From assembly GCA_030248295.1 (NCBI GenBank), contig JASANH010001652.1, positions 186,001 through 250,000 on the forward strand: DNA of 64,000 bases, read 5' to 3'. Made by a program: the position numbers and the translations under genes. This document shows positions 21,315-36,700 of this stretch, one piece after another. The DNA comes from Mesodorylaimus sp. YZB2_4. Its lineage: Eukaryota > Nematoda > Enoplea > Dorylaimida > Dorylaimidae. Position 1 is the first letter of the stretch; every line of letters starts with the position of its first letter. The notes beneath the pieces are model-generated. The model saw nothing but the letters and a program-made list of their open reading frames with translations. It had not been told where the DNA came from and did no database searches.

Positions 21315-21751
21315 TACCTTGTTTGCATGCTACTGTTCTCAGCGATGCCCTTCTCCTATTCTGTACTCAAGCACCGCAGTTCTCTACCTTTATTCAAAAC
21401 AGTTTTTAAAAAGAAAACCACAAAAAGCGTTAGACAAAGTGTTCACCGGATTTGTGCCTGACAGCCGTCAACCAAGTAAGCGTGTCCTAATACAATGTAA
21501 AGGAGCATACCTAAGCCCGAATAGCCGAGGTTTAGCACACGAGCAGACCTAAAATTAGTGCCTTCCTATGCAAAAAGGGGTCTCATACTCACAGTACGCA
21601 TACATCGTACCAACCCGCACGACTACAACATAAAACGTACGCTCATATGACAACCTCGATTACCATTGCCAAGAATATAACGCGCTCCTCGTTTGCGCTA
21701 TTCAAAATTAAACTGAACCACATAAATTTCCAAAAATGGCGTCTCCACACA

Positions 21752-21757
21752 AATAAA
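21752..21757 (+). terminator. Candidate polyadenylation signal of SLC22
   Basis: First AATAAA downstream of the SLC22 stop (438 bp after it). A second AATAAA lies at 22065-22070. Which is used is unknown. Confidence 0.35.
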
Positions 21758-22699
21758 ATGCACGGATCGAACGGATCGCGACGCCGGTGTACCACCTCAC
21801 AAAAACGTCATCGATGCGAGCGACCGTGCACTGAATCGATTATCATATAAACCACACTCCGCAATCACCTACTCATCCAATATGCAATCCCACTTCGGAC
21901 TGCCTCCAGTCACGTGACTCAAAATATTGGCGATCGCTGGCAGATTTTGGCGCCAGATTTGAAAACCCAATTTCGCGTCTCCAAACTTTAAATACCCAAA
22001 AAATTATCCAAGCGCATGGCTTAATCACGTGACTGGTTGCAGCCGAACTTGCACCGCAACAATGAATAAAGTGTAAAGTAGTCTATCCTGCGAACTAAAA
22101 CTGGGACGGACAGCGAACATACGAAACCACAATGCCTATTCGAATGTGCCATAAAAAATAGGATATAAACTTCCTCAATCATTCCACCGTTAAAACCTTT
22201 CCTTGTCTTTTTTTATAAATAAAACATTTCCTGCAGAACGATCAAATTTATGGTCGGCCCCGTACAACGCCGACGTCCCCTCATTCCAGGTCTTACCCCA
22301 ACCTCAAATAGGCCCCCATATCGCACAGTCAAGGCTAAGCCACCCCCTCGATCAGTACTGAACAGGTGGATTCAACTCTAAAAGAAGAAATACGCAAAAG
22401 TTCGTTCGCGTCGCTGAGTTTAGTAAAAAAATTAAAAAATTTCAAAACCAAAATCGTTTTTTCCGCAGGACAGTACCTGAATTTAAAAAAAATTACATAG
22501 AAAAAGCGACAACTCCATTTACCTGAACGAAATAAACCCTGGCACCCTTGCCCTCCTCCCACGTGCACGTATAAAATTTCATATTGTTTTTCCTAATTCA
22601 TTTTATAGAGGTCAAGGTTTCCTCATAAAAATTTATGACTCCCACTTTCCCCCTGCGTATGCAAGGCGGCCCACCGTTGGGCTATGCCCGAATATAATC

Positions 22700-22707
22700 C
22701 CCTGAGA
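22700..22707 (-). promoter_or_regulatory. lin-4/miR-125 seed match in lin-41 3' UTR
   Basis: The plus strand reads CCCTGAGA, identical to nucleotides 2-9 of lin-4/miR-125, about 750 nt after the lin-41 stop codon. miR-125 co-targets vertebrate TRIM71 together with let-7. Confidence 0.5.
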
Positions 22708-22918
22708 TGTGGCTCTGTTATATCCAGAAGCAGGCGGCCTACAATGCACACGCAGCAGCTACACAAAAATCCCACAAATAAAAGGAGAAAAGTGCACAAA
22801 AAACAAACCAAAATTAGTGTACATATCCCGAACCATAACAGGATACTATTTGCCGGCAGAGTGCCGATTCGAGTCTTCTCAATTCTTCAAGAACGCGATT
22901 ATTAATCGCTTCGAAAAA

Positions 22919-22926
22919 GAGGTAGT
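22919..22926 (-). promoter_or_regulatory. let-7 seed match in lin-41 3' UTR (site 2)
   Basis: The plus strand reads GAGGTAGT, identical to let-7 nucleotides 2-9, so the minus-strand lin-41 mRNA is complementary to the seed. It lies about 530 nt after the stop codon. Confidence 0.6.
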
Positions 22927-23181
22927 TCAATTTGAAAGGCAGCATCTGCCATTCTCTCCTCATCCGCCTACACTTCCCCGCAAGCATATAAATAATATTA
23001 CAAAGCCCTTTTAAAAAGCACAAAAACCTTTTTTTTGTCTAACAAACGCAGTCATTTTTTGCATTTTTCCATTTCGTTACTTTAAAAAATAAGAAATTCT
23101 TTGCTTTACTGCTTCTGAAAAGGACGGGCCCAGAAGTGCCTCTCACTCCCAGATTCACTGACCTCTATCTACAAAAACCAC

Positions 23182-23190
23182 GAGGTAGTA
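23182..23190 (-). promoter_or_regulatory. let-7 seed match in lin-41 3' UTR (site 1)
   Basis: The plus strand reads GAGGTAGTA, identical to let-7 nucleotides 2-10, giving a nine-base seed match in the lin-41 mRNA about 265 nt after the stop. A TAG follows that could pair with let-7 18-20 across a loop. A six-base match (GAGGTA, 23264-23269) sits 74 bp nearer the stop. Confidence 0.68.
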
Positions 23191-23345
23191 TAGAACGCTC
23201 TCCTTTGCACACCGGACAATAAATTTACGCTCAATAATCTTAAACTCGACTCCAAGAGTCGAAGAGGTAAATAAAGCCTAACACAGAAACTATTTGTTTC
23301 TTACCACTCCAACGCAGCAGCCCTACGCCCCGCTGAAATCCAAGG

Positions 23346-23378
23346 AAAGGGAGAAAATTACTTTCTCTTTCTCCCTTT
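23346..23378 (-). other. Stem-loop in lin-41 3' UTR
   Basis: AAAGGGAGAAA (23346-23356) and TTTCTCCCTTT (23368-23378) are perfect inverted repeats with an 11-nt loop, 75-110 nt after the lin-41 stop. Could fold in the mRNA; no known role. Confidence 0.5.
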
Positions 23379-23453
23379 TTCTTGAAAAAAAACCCCCATT
23401 TTCGCCTTCCAAAAAGTAAAAATTTCCAAATGCATAACTGCTCACTCCCCTCT

Positions 23454-26400
23454 TCAATAAACGTGTATTTTGTTATTCCCGAAATCGACTACGAAGATCT
23501 TGCCCTCGCACACGCACACGTCGCACGGTCTGTCCATGATCGAGCGTCCTCTCGGCGGATACCCGTCGATACCAAAACTGCACAGAAAGGTCAACTGGGG
23601 GGTGAAGACTTGGACTCGGTTATTACGACTATCGGCTATGATCAAGTGCCCCTCCAAATCCATATCCAAACCTTGCGGCCGTTTAAACGCTCCATCGTAC
23701 TCGCCTTCCCGACCGAAGAATTCCATTTGATTATGAACCACGTCGATGACGGCCAATCGATGATTATTGAAATCCGTACAAAATAACCGCCCATCCGGGG
23801 CGAACACCAATCCACGGGGTGAATCGAATTGCTTATAAAACAAGGACGATTCGAAACCGAATTTATTCAAGAACGTACCCCGCGAATCGAACAATTGAAC
23901 TCGGTGATTCCTCGTGTCCGAAATTGCGATCGAATCATCATTCGACGACACGGCCACGTCCCACGGGTAATTGAACTGGCCATTACCACGACCTTTCTCG
24001 CCAAACTTGAACAAGAACTGTCCGTCCCCCGTGAACACTTGCACTCGATGATTGTCCTTGTCCACCACTATGATCTGGTTCTTGCTGTTCACCGTCACCC
24101 CCGCTGGTCGATCGAATCTGCAAGAACACTACTCTCACATCCTGCCCCACCCAACAGTCGCTGTGGCACACTGTCCCTTATTTGACCACGGCTGGCGAGT
24201 CAAACACAGCACGTGCACAGGGCACAGGTTCAGGCACGAGGAAAACCTCACCCAGGTCTTTGTCAGGCTGGCTCGATCGCCCTTGCTTTACCCTTGGATC
24301 TCATGGAAAAGTCCCCCGCACGATTTCACCCACTCCCAACATGATGGATTCAGTGAAAAACGAGTGATTGATCGCTGGAAGCTGCCACTATCAAACGCCC
24401 ATTTTTAAAGGCAAGCCTATTTTTAAACAATGAAGAAACAACTTTTCTCAAATTCAAATTAAAAAGGAGCGGTTCAATTTGCAATGCCCCCTCAGCATCC
24501 ACCCACCCATCACTCCGCCAGGGATCAAATATTCACATTTTTCGCCCTTCCAGCAAATCCTTACTGAAAATCGGCCAACAGAACATCCTAATCCCCCAAA
24601 AAGCGTCCGACTCGAAACCCTTCGATCCATGGATTAGGTCACTCCATGGAAAGTACCAGAGATCCCTGGGAAACCAAAGGATCTTCGGCTCACAGGTAGC
24701 CATCAAGGTATCAAAGTTACCGTCGCAGTTTTGTCAACCGATGGCAACGTACACGGAAGATATTTGGTCAAATTTTTTAGCCTATGCGTCAGATAAGTAA
24801 ATGCAAAACGTAAAGCTAAGGAGATCGTGCATTTAGTAGTGCAGCGTTAGCGCACCCCCTTTCGAATAGCAAAACGAATGATCGAATCCTAGCGGCGTAA
24901 ATTTTTCTGCATTTTTCAAACGAGGTCAAAACATATTTTGCATTGTCGCCCTAGTTTAGTTTAAATTGAATGTGCTTTTACGAACATAAAAACTTTTACC
25001 TTATAAAATCGTCTGAAAAAGAATTGACGCTACCAGGATTCGATCCTGTTGTCTTGTGATTCAAAAGGGAATGCGCTAACCGCCTACACCACTGACCCCC
25101 CACGATCCGGCACTTTACATTCGGCATTTACTTACATGACGACGCAGCCTGTTCGAAACTTTGACCAAATATCTTTCGTGAACGTGGCCGCTAGCAGCTG
25201 AAAATGCGATAACTGCTTTAGACCTTGACCCACGGGCCAAAACTCACCTGGTTCCCGGGTGTCATAAGTTATCACAGCCCGAAGCCTACTACTGTACACT
25301 TACTGCCCATTGCGGCATCCCGGCGACCCAAATTTATGCAAGAACTTTCCGTCTTGATCGAATATTTGAATTCGGCTGTTACTACGATCGGCCACGATGA
25401 TTCTTCCTTGTTTATCGCAGCAAATCCCCCACGGCCTGCACAACTGACCATCGCCCGCTCCCTCGCCTCCGAACGACATGGTCGGCGTGGCCCCGATGGT
25501 CGTGTAATCTCGACCTCGACGTACGATCAACGTGAATGGACTCCCTCGAATCGGACACCCACGCACGAATATGTGCACCTAAAAACGTAGAAACATCATT
25601 TTCCCAGCCCCTTCAAAATGTGCCAAAACATCCAGTTCCCTATGACAAACTTTAAAATTAAAAGCCAAAGATTTTTCAAAAAAGGAAAACTAATAGAAAA
25701 GGCAGAGAAATTTCATCATTTGCAAAAAACATTATTACACAAGAAAAGACAAAACCCCCAACTACTTTTCGAGATCTTCTTTCACATTATCTCACTTTTC
25801 CAGTCACCCTATTCCACTACAGATCCCGCCAGTCCCCGGCGACCCCTAACATTGCGCTGATTTTTCACAATCAACCATTTTAAAACAGGGCGTCAGACAC
25901 GAAATGACATTATCCGATGGCACAATGGTGCTTCCTCGGGCTAATTCACAAAACAATTTCCTGTCACGCCTCTGCTCAATGCCCATTAATGGATCACTCC
26001 TATTAGCTTTCCCAACATCAGCCCCACGGCCCCTTATTCAACCATCTTATAGAGCGCCAAGGAAGCAGCACTGTTTTTTTCGTTTTTTTTTATCAGCGCT
26101 AAATAAGTTAGACTTCTACGTAAAATCTTACTCTTCTCTTCACCTTACAAATTTTGGACAGTGCAAATTAAATGATAGGGTCCAGAAAACAATTTTCCCA
26201 TTTTTCACATTTTCCAGACAGAAATTCGATTTTTCCTCAGATTATTTATACACTATCCCAGGTCTACTGATTAAATTTTAAGTGATTTACTGATCCGCAT
26301 GATTAACAGCTCTGAGAAAAGGCGAGTGATTCGAAATTTGAACCCTTCAAATGCACCGCTCAGTTTATTCCGACTTTGGCTAAAAAATTCCCATTTTTCG

Positions 26401-29400
26401 TCCCCTTGCATGAACCCTGAATGGGCAAAGAGGTGGGTTTCGGTCGGCAAAATGTGCCCACGCATTTTGCACCTCTCTCAGATAATTGATTCAATGCAAG
26501 AGACCAAAATTTTGACTGCAAATGCGGTTATCGCAGGCTAATTGCAAAGGTTTTTCGCCAGAAAGCTTCAATTTCTAAAGTTCGCATTCCTCTGGCCCAT
26601 AGATAACGCCGCATCCGAAACCTACCCCATGGCTGGGGAAGTCTGAAATTTTTTTGCCGTTTGATAAGGAGGGTCCAGCAAGCAAAAAACAAGTTTCTTG
26701 TATCCATTGCGTTATAAACTTTTTTTTTGACATTTTTTATACAAGTTGCGGAAAGTGATTTTCCAGACAAAATTTCAAATATTCCCCTGTACTTTTCACA
26801 ATTTGAAACCTCAAAATGAACTTTTCAGTTTTACCTAATTTTTAGCTCAAAATTCCCACTGTTACAGCCCATTTTCAGATTCTCAGACTTCCAGGTTTTC
26901 CAAATCTGAATGAACCCTGCTTCGTCTGAGCCTTGCCATCGCCCTGCATGCGTGCATGCACTGGAGGTCGGTCCCAGCAAGGATAGCGCTCTATTTTCTG
27001 GCGGTGTCTTGGTCTTGGGCTCACGTCAGGTCGATTCCTACCAGGGAGGGGTCCGGTCAAAAACTGGCCATTTCGCCCAAACTGAGCTATTTTGATCCAA
27101 AATGACGGCTCGACCAGCCACTTTCGGCTGCTGTGCCCTCGTCTCCCAGCCCCTCACCTGATGTTCTCCCTCTTGATTCGGTTCGTATCGGCATAAATAA
27201 GTCCCGTTCTTCTTGTCATACACGTCGACTGGCGAGGGTGCCATCTCGCCATCTCCGCCACCGCCCGACGTAGCCACCACGAAGGCGTTCACTTGATCGC
27301 CGCCCGTCGTTAATTGTTCTCCGACATGATCACGAGCTTGGACTGTGTAATAAATAGGTTTGTCCTTGATGGCGCGTCGTACCGGATCGCCCAGGAGAGT
27401 GCAATTCGGGGCGTATGCACCAGTTATAATATTGCCTAACATACGAACCGTTTTTAAGACACCTGCATCCGGTGCAGAGAAATTCAATTGATCATCTTCT
27501 TGCGGTTGTAAGCAAGGCCTCGATGATTTCAAATTATGTAGTTGTTCTTGTAAAATATTTCGTAAACGCGTCCTCGTTTCGCTATCGTCTTCTTGACGTT
27601 GCTTTTGTTGTTGACACGAATTTAACAATTTTTCGGCCTGTTCTAACGTATTTTTCGACGACGATAAATATTTGCGCAATTCTTCCTTTTGTAAATTCAA
27701 CGCGCCCAATTTCGCCGTCCTTACGGCGTCTACTCGTTCTAATAATTCACGTTTACGTTCTTCCAGTGCACCGATATGATGATGTATTACGCCACGTATT
27801 TCGTTCGCCACCGAATGCATTCTCGTCTCCACACGTTCAGTCATGTGATCCACGCCTCGAACCGCTTCGTCCAACACGCGAACACATTCGCGAGCGTCGG
27901 AGAAAAGCTGAAAAGTAAAAAGCAATACAAAAACAATCATGTAAAATCGCAATTTCTCACCTGAGCCAATGGTTGAGGTTCGTTTTGGGCACTCATTTTG
28001 TCACCACCGCTGGGCACAGGTTTCGAGGTGATTGGCGAAATTCGATGGGATGGAAACGGATGACTCGGATTATTTGACGTGCAGAATCGACATAACGCCT
28101 CTGAGCACGTTTCGCAAAAATAAGTTAGAGGCTCGAACTGATGCTGAGCACAAAATCCCGTCGATTGACGCGTAGCATTGACCAAATTCGGTTGTGACGA
28201 TCGTTGAGCGCCTTGCATGGGCGATTGAACTTTGGGAACGGCGACTGGTTGATTCAAAGGTGGGCGAGGAGACTGACCAGTCGATAGCGAGTTGTTCATT
28301 GACCACAAATTGGGTATTAAGGATGATGCCGAGCCCGGAGAATGCGTGGCAGGTGATTGGTTCTGATGGAATATGGAAACGATGCGATGATCTTTCGTCA
28401 ATCGAACCCGTAAATGAGCTTGAACGCATTTAGCGCACAAATATTCGGCGCAATCCTCGCAGCGACAAGCCGCTTCGACGCCGTCCGAACAGATCGAACA
28501 AGGTGGTGCGCCGGAAAAAGATGAGGTCGACGATGAAGAGGTAGGAGTCATTTTCGAGACTGGTGGAACAATTGATGCTGCTGCTGGCGTTGGTTGCTGC
28601 GATGACATAAATGGCAGGCCACTTGATGAACGGTGCCCGCCGACGGCTAACGAGAAAACTGGTTGTTGCGCTTGAACTGGGCGAGGTTGATGGAAAAGCG
28701 AAGGCGACATGGCGCCCGGTGGTGGGGTGTTCGCATTTCCGAGGACCCTGAAGCCGAACGGAGCGTTCGCCGACGAATGAGAGGTAACTGGGAATTTGTT
28801 CGAGGTAGAATTCGCAGACGGCAGTCGTTGATGTCCTTTCGGCTAAAAAATGATATTTTGAAAAAGAGGAAAGCGGACTCAGATACCTATTAACAGAAAG
28901 GTAGACTCACTAAACGCGAAATCACCAAAGCGATAAAGCCTCAGGGCAAGATTGGACGGGGAGCACTACAAATCTTGAAACAAGACCTCCTAAGCAAGTT
29001 ACCTGCAGTTGTAGCACGTCATCATTCATCGAAACCGAATCCAGTAGACTGCCGATCAGCAGAGAGGTATCGACGTTGAGCTGCTCGTTGAAGAGGTACG
29101 AATAGGACGAGGGCGTGGTTCTGGAGCCGATAATAGCGCTGCTATACGATGGGATATCACAGCTAACTGACGGCGATGCGAACGTGTATTGTTGCCGATT
29201 AATTGCTCCTGAGGACGAAAAGGAGGAAAACGAGGGAAACTCGTGGAGAAACGAAGGTGCCGAGGTAGTGGCCGATGCTGTTCCGGCGAGGTGATTTTGT
29301 TCATCCACACCACCGCCGCAAATTGGGCATATCGGATGTTGATGCGAGGTCGGAACGTGAAAATTTCCCTGAGTTTGGAAGCATTTTCGGCACAACGCAT

Positions 29401-29713
29401 GCAAACACGGTAACGTATGAAGTTCGCTTAGCGAGTCCGGCGTTTGACGACATTTATCGCAGGCCATACTCGATGTTGATGAAGACAACGCGGCATTAGT
29501 ATTGGCCGTCGCCACCATATTCGCCATCATCATTGAACCAGCGCCGGCGAAAGGGCTATATTCTTCGCGCCTACTCCCATTCCAACCCGATCCTGACACA
29601 CTCTTCTGTTGACCGCCTCCGTTCGTGAATGTGGGCGTTGTGGCCGAAGACGACGAATACGACGATCCTTCTGTTTCGGCTGACGGCGAAGTGAACGGGA
29701 AAGTCGCCGCCAT
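23454..29713 (-). CDS. lin-41: LIN-41/TRIM71, RING-B-box-filamin-NHL RNA-binding protein
   Basis: Post-transcriptional repressor of developmental timing, acting in cytoplasm on mRNAs through its NHL propeller. Five exons, all junctions in phase: 29713-29003, 28842-27961, 27907-27158, 25578-25304, 24117-23454; 1,093 residues. Domains: Ser-rich N terminus; C3HC4 RING (Cys85, 88, 103, His105, Cys108, 111, 129, 132); B-box 1 from CSICSDGVEAACRC (about 352-395); B-box 2 from CAQHQFEPLTYFC (about 468-510); coiled coil (about 532-640) ending in LQPQEDD; filamin/ABP280 repeat with GDPVRRAIKDKPIYYTVQA and NGTYLCRYEPNQEGEH (about 690-800); six NHL repeats from LCRPWGICCDKQGRIIVADR to the final VVDFGNNKIHVY. 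All order and spacing match TRIM71 rather than TRIM2/3, BRAT or NHL-1. The start was set at MAATFPF; the frame is open to a possible acceptor at 29743, so a 5' exon may exist. Regulated by let-7-type sites (see separate entries). Confidence 0.97.
24721..25212. mobile_element. Foldback element with tRNA-like boxes in both arms (lin-41 intron 4)
   Basis: Two imperfect inverted arms of about 180-190 bp (24721-24900 and 25025-25212) surround about 125 bp of AT-rich sequence. Shared, in order inward: CACGGAAGATATTTGGTCAA / CACGAAAGATATTTGGTCAA, GTAAATGC, TAAAG, GATCGTG, an A-box-like GTTAGCGCA, CCCTTTcGAAT/CCCTTTTGAAT, and a B box GATCGAATCCT. Left arm boxes: about 24840-24852 and 24879-24890 (plus); right arm: about 25073-25094 and 25034-25046 (minus). 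No anticodon stem or acceptor stem pairs, so these are not functional tRNAs. Confidence 0.65.
26606..27000 (+). repeat. Dispersed repeat, copy in lin-41 intron 3
   Basis: Starts GCATCCGAAACCTACCCCATGG and runs through a TCCAGCAAGCAAAAAAC block, CATTGCGTTATAAACTT, GATTTTCCAGACAAAATT and ends near CTGAGCCTTGCCATCGCCCTGCATGC. The same blocks in the same order occur at 56249-56770 in the last SLCO intron. Copies differ by many substitutions, so insertion is old. No coding capacity. Confidence 0.65.
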
Positions 29714-33700: not shown

Positions 33701-36700
33701 AATTCTGTTCGGAACATAGTGAAGACGTTGCAAAATGTGGAACAAGACGAAGCGGCGGTGCAGGTGGTTTTTGCCATGGTGGCGAAAACGTTCGCCGAGG
33801 ACGGAGGTAAGGTGTGGGCATGCAATGTTTGGTGCGGAAATAATGGCAAGCTGTTGCAGAGGCGGTGGTCCGAGGTGAATTGTTGGAGCAGCTTCCCATG
33901 ATTTGCATGCATTGCTCGCAAAGTCCCAATTTGCAACGATACATCAAGGAGGTGTTGTGGCCGTTGCTGGTGAAGTTCTTGAATGATCAGAGTTCGCAGG
34001 TGAGTGCTTTGGACGGACGATGTACAGACGGATGGGGTACGAGTGGCTTCGTGTGTTTAGGTGCGCAAGACTTGTCAGACAGCGATATTGATCCTGATTG
34101 AACAAGGTTTATTGATATCAGGTAAGATTGGAACGGGTCAGTCGGATACTTGTTCGTCGGTTGTTTTCTTTCGTCTGGGCATTTTCTATTCGTCTAAGAC
34201 GAATGTTGGCGCATTTTTTCGTGATGTTTTGTGAGCACAAAAAACTGTAGCTCGACTCGTTACCACGCCACGTAGGCGCCAGTGTTGGCCTTGGACATTT
34301 ATTCTATTGAATCGAGGCAGCCGACTGGTGAGGGCACTGAAAAATGGAAATCTCCGACGCGGATAGGCCCGTGGTCTGGTGTGGGGTGCATATTTTTTGC
34401 TTTTGATTTGTGCATGCATGGATGAGACGAGCAGATGTTGACTGTTGTGGGTAGGTCAGCGTCGCGAATATCGGGTGTTGGTTTTGGTAGGGAGTATGTT
34501 TTGGTGCGATCGATAGGGTAGGATTCTATCTCTGGTATAACTCAGGAAAGAAACGGTTCAGAGTTGTAAAGTGGGATTAGACTGAGATGGTCCGATTTTA
34601 GGAAGAGTAGATTATCTTTTCCAGTGCGATCTCGCCCTTGGTGGCAGTTGTCCAAAACGGCGGTGCCATTAGCTTAGGTGCATTATCTCCCAACCAAGGT
34701 GACGATTGAGCGCGGGCGGCTAACTTTACGGAGAGGTAGTAAAAAGTGGGAGAGGTAGCGAAACCGGTTCCGTTGAGCAGGATAGGAGTGCGGTGATGGC
34801 GAGGCTAAGATTTCTGGCACCGATGCTTAGGTTTCGTTCCAAGTGCTTGGTTTGGACTGGTTGTTGCATGAGACAGACGAGGCGGGCTGGTGTTGACATG
34901 ACGGTCAAGTATTCTCTCCGTTTTAGAAGACATAATCGAATTAATCTATCCGGAATTGATAAAATTATCGGGAGCGTGTTTTGCGGACGATCAGCGGATC
35001 GAGGCTGTTTGTGTAAGTATCTTGTTGACGGGTGTTTATCGGGTGTGTGTGCAGTGAGCATGCGGGTGGCGAGAGGGATGAGGAGGCGGGGTTTGGTGAA
35101 AGACATGGGTAGTGAGACGTTTATTCTGGAATTCGTGTCACTATTCTGTTTTTCGCCCGAACTTCGCCGTGCTCGTCGATGCGTGGCCTTGATGCGACCG
35201 ATGGCCTTGGACCATTACGGGTGCCATTTGGTGGGGTGACAAAGAAGGTTTGGGGGCAGTGAATTAGTTGTGGGCGGCAGGTGGCTTTCGGTTGTGGCCC
35301 GCCTACTTGTTATTATTGTACGGCAGCTGGCGCGTTGGTCGGGTCTGGGATATGGGGCTCTTTGTTGTGTCCTTGTTGGCAATATAACAATGATCATTCG
35401 TGCCTCGCTTACTATTTTGTCATCAATGCTGCCTGTCATAGAGGATTTGGTAGCTATCACAGCCAGCTTTGATGAGCAGAATATGCTGCATAATCTACGT
35501 GTTGCCACACCGCCCTTGCTTGTCTTGTCACTGCTTGCCCGCTTATTTCCAGGACATCAAGGTGGCGGTGATCTGCAGGAACGGTGTCAAATCACAGCCA
35601 GCTTTGATGTGCTCGGAGGCGGGTCTCACGACTGGGTGTGGTGCGTCTCGTGTTTTGAGTTTTGTATATTTTATTTTCGGTTTCTTTTAAGTTTCGGCGC
35701 TTGTGTGCCATCAAAGCAGTTGTGATGTGTGGACAATATTTTCATATCACAGCCAGTTTTGATGTGCCCGCAGGTGAGCTCCGCTTATCATCTTCGTTTT
35801 GAGTTTTGGTGCGTGCGAGAGTGATTGTGTGCGGATGGGGGTGGGGGGTTGAGTGAATGGGCTTGGTAAGGTGTCTGAAAGTTGTTCTCTTATTTTAGTT
35901 GCTATGCAAACTCGTCTCCACATTGGGTCGAGAAACGACGATCAAATTTTTCTTGAATAAATTTACGGAGCTATGCCAAGATTCATTATTTCATATTAGA
36001 AAAGTGAGTCGGTTGTTTCTCAGGCGTCAACTGTTTGTGGGTGGAAAGGCGGGGCTTGGGGTTGGGAGATGGCCAAAATTGACTGGTACCACACCACGGA
36101 AGTGAATCACTTCTTTGTCCACGCTCATAAGGGTCTGAACTATATTTTACACGTGCCACGATGGGCAAGACTGGCTGAGGTTCCACATACGAACTAATTT
36201 TGGCTCGCGGAATAGGCAGCGTAGAATTGTCATGCTTCCGGAAGTTCCTGGGTAAAATTGAGTTTCAGTCTCCTGGTAGCGTAAAATGCTGTTTGTGGCC
36301 TTGCTGGTATGGTTTCTATTTTAGACATGCGCGTCTCATTTGGGCGAGATGAGTCGGGTACTGGGTCAGGATGTGACGGAGAAATTGCTGGTACCTCATT
36401 TAATCTCACTTAGTCAAGACAGCGTTTGGGGCGTTCGGAAAACATGCGCCGAATGTTTCACGGATATTTCCTACAATTGCGCTATGCAAACGCGTCGACA
36501 TCAATTGGCTCCTGTATTTATTGTATTGTTAGCCGATAATTCGCGTTGGGTAAGTGAGATGTTGCGTTGGTCTCGCTGAGAGGGAGGGGGAATCGGGCAT
36601 GCTTTGTCGAAAGGTTCACCCAGACCCTAGTGTGGGTGGGAGTGAGGCGAATAGTCAATTGTCTGGTTTCAGGTTCAGTGCTCGGCGTTCCAAGCATTGG

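Follow-up and report, generated by a model that had tools for sequence, protein, structure and literature searches.

Candidate let-7 and miR-125 sites in a lin-41/TRIM71 orthologue of the nematode Mesodorylaimus, whose genome carries two mir-100/let-7/mir-125 clusters

We analyzed a window of 64,000 nucleotides from Mesodorylaimus sp. YZB2_4 (assembly GCA_030248295.1, contig JASANH010001652.1, positions 186,001–250,000 of the forward strand). Plain coordinates refer to this window, and those prefixed with C and a number to the same assembly. The minus strand of the window contains a gene modeled in five exons, separated by GT-AG introns and encoding a 1093-residue protein:

29003–29713, minus strand: lin-41 coding exon 1, with the ATG and the RING (gene model, GT-AG introns; RING below the Pfam cut-off)
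27961–28842, minus strand: lin-41 coding exon 2, with two B-boxes (gene model, Pfam)
27158–27907, minus strand: lin-41 coding exon 3, with the first part of the filamin domain (gene model, Pfam)
25304–25578, minus strand: lin-41 coding exon 4, with the end of the filamin domain and the start of the NHL propeller (gene model, Pfam)
23454–24117, minus strand: lin-41 coding exon 5, with NHL repeats and the stop TGA, complement of 23454–23456 (gene model, domain and structure matches)

Pfam searches place a RING, two B-boxes, a filamin domain, and NHL repeats together in the predicted protein; the RING scores 19.7 bits against a cut-off of 27.9, and the remaining domains lie above theirs. Among solved structures, the NHL exon matches TRIM71 best (9e-88), with Thin as the next family (1.2e-57), then TRIM3 (1.9e-44) and Brat (9.9e-34). 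By these structure-match E-values, used in place of a tree, the NHL domain is nearer to TRIM71 than to other TRIM-NHL proteins. Elsewhere in the genome, where 13 candidates were scored, the next match to the NHL exon reaches 1.2e-21, and a second full-length NHL match was not found among them. As judged from its predicted protein, the gene is the LIN-41/TRIM71 orthologue. The intron at 24118–25303 contains, at 24743–25189, four nested inverted-repeat pairs of 29–34 nt (78–88% complementary) that form a large imperfect palindrome. Its arms show tRNA-like box text when read by eye, and the palindrome may represent two facing copies of a mobile element.

A mir-71/mir-2/mir-2 cluster (35091–35771, plus strand; Rfam scores of 64.8, 49.5, and 52.5 bits) lies ~5.4 kb upstream of the lin-41 start and is divergent from lin-41; mir-71 and mir-2 are a clustered pair in H. 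contortus (PMC3282659, excerpt). Two GAGGTAG words at 34733 and 34752 on the plus strand, 19 nt apart, stand ~340 nt upstream of mir-71, and the Rfam scan called no let-7 hairpin at them. In the genome as a whole, the nematode cuticle collagen N-terminal domain is matched 133 times, and the C. elegans SL1 finds no match with at most two mismatches, other leaders being possible.

The same assembly contains two let-7 hairpins, with 5′ ends at C61:386784 (TGAGGTAGTAAGTTTTATAGTT) and at C148:187739 on the minus strand (TGAGGTAGTTGGTTGTATAGTT), which fold at −41.5 and −41.9 kcal/mol, respectively. One passes the Rfam let-7 gathering score (54.6 against 53.5) and the other falls below it (48.4). Five miR-125-like hairpins are found in the genome, two of them (C61:388067 and C148:186603) inside let-7 clusters:

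C61:381701–388088, one strand: mir-100/let-7/mir-125 cluster, ~6.4 kb (Rfam, pattern, folding)
C148:186582–190594, one strand: mir-100/let-7/mir-125 cluster, ~4.0 kb (Rfam, pattern, folding)
C18:578168, C41:177038, and C66:53147: extra miR-125-like hairpins outside the let-7 clusters (pattern, folding)

In both clusters, mir-100 lies upstream and mir-125 downstream of let-7 on the same strand, which is the order of the let-7-complex. The mir-100 members and one let-7 pass Rfam, and a pattern search with folding identified the mir-125 hairpins; the bilaterian miR-125 pattern returned 54 rows, two of them exact and most others at the level of the reversed control (28). Similarity between the two clusters is confined to the hairpins (76–83%) and a few repeats, and they therefore look like old paralogues rather than alleles. 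A lin-4 of the C. elegans form was not found in the genome with up to three mismatches, and the Rfam lin-4 family found nothing among 69 scored candidates.

Because lin-41 lies on the minus strand, its target sites read as miRNA-like words on the plus strand. A scan of the whole window for the let-7 seed complement CTACCTC revealed, beyond the copies downstream of the stop described below, three on the lin-41 mRNA strand that the earlier note on this DNA had not listed, all in coding exons:

29262–29269, minus strand: let-7 seed site in the coding sequence, ACTACCTC, nt 2–9 (window scan, gene model)
28802–28808, minus strand: let-7 7-mer in the coding sequence (window scan, gene model)
28538–28544, minus strand: let-7 7-mer in the coding sequence (window scan, gene model)
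29366–29373, minus strand: miR-125 8-mer in the coding sequence, CTCAGGGA, with t1A; by itself within chance, P 0.16 (window scan, gene model)

The three coding let-7 7-mers compare with 0.20 expected (P = 0.0006; 20,000 synonymous-codon shuffles, which preserve both the protein and its codon use). All three share one frame and sit in Thr-Ser contexts, and this protein composition raises the expectation for CTACCTC without explaining the count. Among the 63 7-mers with at least three coding copies, CTACCTC is one of five whose count was matched in 0 of 1000 shuffles; another of the five, TACCTCT, overlaps the let-7 seed word (4 copies against 0.17). The coding words may instead be a by-product of a Thr-Ser-rich protein and codon bias, with only the sites in the untranslated region mattering. 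The shared frame and the equally extreme 7-mers speak for this reading, as does the general weakness of miRNA sites in coding sequence compared with those in UTRs, while the rarity of three or more copies (0.06% of the shuffles that keep protein and codon use) speaks against it; we regard it as a serious contender, short of an even chance.

Downstream of the stop codon, the predicted 3′ UTR and the candidate sites within it are arranged as follows:

21389–23453, minus strand: predicted lin-41 3′ UTR, ~2.07 kb (ends at the sole mRNA-strand AATAAA; cumulative AT skew minimum at 21394)
23264–23269, minus strand: marginal let-7 6-mer, GAGGTA on the plus strand, nt 2–7, without t1A (sequence match)
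23182–23190, minus strand: let-7 site, GAGGTAGTA on the plus strand, pairing with nt 2–10 of canonical and C61 let-7 (sequence match)
22919–22927, minus strand: let-7 site, GAGGTAGT at 22919–22926, matching nt 2–9 of canonical let-7 and nt 2–10 of C148 let-7 (sequence match)
22700–22707, minus strand: lin-4/miR-125 site, CCCTGAGA on the plus strand, nt 2–9 (sequence match)
22608–22619, minus strand: bulged let-7 candidate, GAGGTCAAGGTT on the plus strand, rejected (5 seed bases; energy equal to controls)

The first AATAAA on the lin-41 mRNA strand, and the only one, is at 21389–21394; between the stop and this hexamer we found neither AATAAA nor ATTAAA, so neither precedes the sites. Since composition alone predicts 0.99 AATAAA and ~1.3 ATTAAA over the stretch, the absence of these signals, or a single AATAAA, is weak evidence taken alone. 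The mRNA strand is U-rich overall (33% U, 25% A); of 26 windows of 150 nt, 5 show the opposite bias. Accumulated over 21316–23453, the AT skew reaches its lowest value at 21394, aided partly by the T-rich hexamer itself. Together, these features suggest a 3′ UTR of ~2.07 kb that would hold every UTR site. A UTR of this length would reach as far as the end of a convergent gene resembling a sugar/MFS transporter (Pfam match below cut-off).

Variant signals occur nearer the stop on the mRNA strand (AAGAAA at 23383 and 23302, AGTAAA at 23110, TTTAAA at 23086 and 23015), which makes shorter lin-41 isoforms possible, and nematodes use many variant poly(A) signals. On this basis, lin-41 mRNA might end before the sites in the soma, so that the UTR sites would serve a long isoform only or go unused. 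We consider this improbable, given the lack of either standard signal before 21389 (about one of each being expected), the overall U-richness of the strand, and the turn of the skew at 21394; the coding-sequence sites, moreover, would persist in every isoform.

The five matches downstream of the stop had been listed in the earlier note, which put them within 0.9 kb of it. On re-reading the sequence, all are present as given, ~184–845 nt downstream. Those at 22919 and 23182, 263 nt apart, are canonical let-7 sites, with at least a 7-mer match to nt 2–8 in the predicted 3′ UTR. Each pairs with nt 2–10 of a different let-7 copy, 23182 with that of C61 and 22919 with that of C148; one base decides in each case, and we give this no weight. 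The 6-mer at 23264 is indeed there, but it is weak and has no t1A; at none of the five UTR features does an A face miRNA nt 1, the base there being G or U. The proposed bulged site at 22608–22619 is ruled out, as only five of its seed bases pair and controls that retain the seed end reach a duplex energy at least as good.

Measured against shuffled controls, neither UTR let-7 7-mer gains from pairing past the seed, and nor does the miR-125 site. In the case of 23182 and C61 let-7, 500 of 500 controls pair better, and the only value better than its controls, for the 6-mer with one of the three let-7 forms (2.4%), is one of fourteen comparisons. Neither 7-mer site shows the extensive 3′ pairing of a C. 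elegans-type let-7 complementary site (LCS) with any of the three let-7 forms. Predicted accessibility is poor at 23182, where 71% of UTR positions are more open; the corresponding values are 29% for 22919, 29% for 22700, and 20% for 23264. None of 18 other miRNA seeds has a 7-mer in the lin-41 UTR, with miR-100 and miR-124 having one 6-mer each.

Adjoining the let-7 6-mer in the lin-41 3′ UTR is a tri-loop hairpin (complement of 23245–23263) with seven Watson-Crick pairs and one terminal wobble. The LIN-41 NHL domain binds tri-loop hairpins of the LIN-41-response motif (PMC5908797, excerpt); the closing pair here differs from the preferred one. Hairpins of this kind are not significantly in excess in lin-41's own UTR, which has 6 where mononucleotide shuffles give 2.6 (P 0.07).

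The two UTR let-7 7-mers, at 22919 and 23182, are beyond chance. Over the 854 nt that follow the stop, 0.049 let-7 7-mers are expected from a 202-kb own-genome background read on both strands, giving P ~0.0011 for at least two. This background comprises 36 loci and the window outside lin-41; it counts some overlapping loci twice and includes the 10-kb let-7 and lin-28 loci, which raises it and makes the test conservative. At least two let-7 7-mers arise in 0.01% of 20,000 dinucleotide shuffles of the 854-nt stretch (P = 0.0001), and at least two together with at least one miR-125 7-mer in 0 of 20,000. Background windows of 854 nt, taken at a step of 50 on both strands and therefore overlapping, contain at least two let-7 7-mers in 16 of 6170 cases and a miR-125 7-mer as well in none of the 6170; this set leaves out the lin-41 loci and the 3-kb let-7/miR-125 loci (L009–L015, L030–L033, L043, L044, and L046–L048). 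The miR-125 UTR match is mildly surprising by itself (P ~0.03).

In the same 854 nt, CTACCTC ranks first in over-representation among 53 7-mers with at least two copies. Across the full 2065-nt UTR, it ranks second of 196 repeated 7-mers, and the two sites are less striking (P 0.006). Coding sequence and UTR combined hold five let-7 7-mers against 0.30 expected (P 1.7e-5), and GAGGTAG was not found on the mRNA strand within the lin-41 transcript.

We also examined lin-28, chosen as a known let-7 target and not picked from a scan of many genes. Of the genome's seven cold-shock-domain matches, the C3 match has two CCHC knuckles downstream of it on its own strand. Among solved structures, LIN-28 is the best match to these knuckles (4.7e-7), and viral nucleocapsids follow from 8e-4; taken by itself, the cold-shock fragment is matched better by bacterial and Y-box proteins than by LIN-28. 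By its domain matches, the C3 locus pairs a cold-shock domain with two LIN-28-like knuckles. Three CTACCTC words lie 3′ of this lin-28 homologue, at C3:1793643 (followed by G) and at 1793599 and 1793521 (each followed by A), and the miR-125 7-mer word TCAGGGA at C3:1793670. All four are at most 250 nt from the stop at 1793767, and P for the let-7 words is 4.7e-7. The let-7 control proposed for lin-41 probably extends to lin-28.

Genome-wide, CTACCTC pairs 30–45 nt apart occur at 78 places, compared with 46 for the reversed pattern. From a reading of the rows, ~64 of the 78 belong to one dispersed repeat (for example, L051, L054, and L055), in which two let-7 seed complements start ~46 nt from each other; the ~14 others include lin-28. 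Were the repeat transcribed in this orientation, it could act as a let-7 sponge.

The weakest alternative treats the matches as chance occurrences in AT-rich intergenic DNA, with lin-41 outside let-7 control here: the words are short, the miR-125 match and the 6-mer are unimpressive alone, some background windows also hold two let-7 7-mers, a dispersed repeat carries paired CTACCTC, and four other coding 7-mers (one overlapping CTACCTC) are equally unmatched by shuffles, but the words fall in the predicted gene, for the predicted miRNA and on the predicted strand, in an excess that the reverse complement does not share; CTACCTC tops the repeated 7-mers just after the stop, lin-28 shows the same pattern, and neither UTR site lies, by eye, within the repeat's motif, all of which makes this reading highly improbable.

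The let-7 control of lin-41 is a classic conserved microRNA switch. The best explanation of our data, and one we hold with high confidence, is that let-7 targeting of lin-41 mRNA is conserved here, with miR-125 targeting also probable. Under this explanation, let-7 would be made from the two mir-100/let-7/mir-125 clusters as larval development proceeds. Loaded in Argonaute, it would pair by its canonical seed with the two sites in the lin-41 3′ UTR and perhaps also with up to three sites in the coding sequence. LIN-41 would be lowered late in larval life, releasing later developmental programs; miR-125 would add to lin-41 repression, and lin-28 would probably come under the same let-7 control. 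The proposal in the earlier note that the heterochronic circuit is preserved gains support from the lin-41 orthology, the let-7 and miR-125 hairpins, the site enrichment, and the let-7 words of lin-28. The timing switch known from worm to human very probably works here too.

A bolder extension would have this early-branching nematode retain the timing module of ancestral bilaterians whole and in duplicate, with two complete clusters and plain seed sites in lin-41 (3′ UTR and coding sequence) and lin-28. In C. elegans, the scattering of the genes and the bulges in the sites would then be derived, and a shortened 3′ UTR would offer no escape from control through the coding sequence. We put this forward tentatively, as nearly an even call that falls slightly on the doubtful side.

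The LCS sites of C. elegans lin-41 are imperfect, close together, and heavily 3′-paired, and the title of Vella 2004 has the word 'imperfect'. The lin-41 target sites of C. elegans are unusual, and its miRNA genes are unlinked. As in that species, the predicted 3′ UTR of the lin-41 orthologue here holds two let-7 sites; unlike the LCS, these are uninterrupted seed matches of 8–9 nt to the species' own let-7s, 263 nt apart, and further let-7 seeds in the coding sequence add to the difference. In C. elegans lin-41, the two 3′ UTR sites carry the main function of let-7 (PMC6435043, excerpt). Vertebrate TRIM71 is co-targeted by let-7 and miR-125 (PMC4382986, excerpt), and both words likewise occur together in the predicted lin-41 3′ UTR here; our gene has one miR-125 UTR site plus the coding 8-mer that is within chance. 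With 3′ pairing that does not exceed the control level, the mode of targeting here looks nearer to the vertebrate one of plain seeds plus miR-125 than to the 3′-paired sites of C. elegans.

The order of genes in the Drosophila let-7-Complex is mir-100, let-7, mir-125. Both of our clusters have the same order and strand, and differ from the Drosophila complex in that the cluster is duplicated and the let-7 copies have diverged. The linkage of the three Drosophila genes is described in PMC3763532 (excerpt), and Brugia has let-7/mir-100b without mir-125 (PMC3282659, excerpt). In T. spiralis (PMC3212509, excerpt), miR-125 is letter-for-letter that of both clustered copies here, and miR-100 agrees with the copies here over the 22 nt compared; tsp-let-7 is canonical, and one of our two let-7 copies departs from it at 1 nt, the other at 2. 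Placed by the cuticle collagen matches and these miRNA identities, the species is a nematode that probably stands close to the Trichinella branch.

The core of our finding, let-7 and miR-125 sites in lin-41, is of a known kind, already stated to be conserved across bilaterians (PMC4382986, excerpt); the duplicated complete cluster in a nematode and the coding-sequence sites are the newer parts. Neither a nematode with the full cluster nor let-7 sites in a lin-41 coding sequence was found in the open-licence literature among the matches listed (titles and abstract starts), which leaves such absence unproven. According to the excerpted text of PMC3763532, a 2013 paper, let-7/mir-125 linkage was lost in nematodes, a general statement that the complete clusters here qualify. 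The sites described above provide a concrete list in lin-41 for testing, and a nematode with an intact cluster and plain seed sites would show which features of the system are ancestral.
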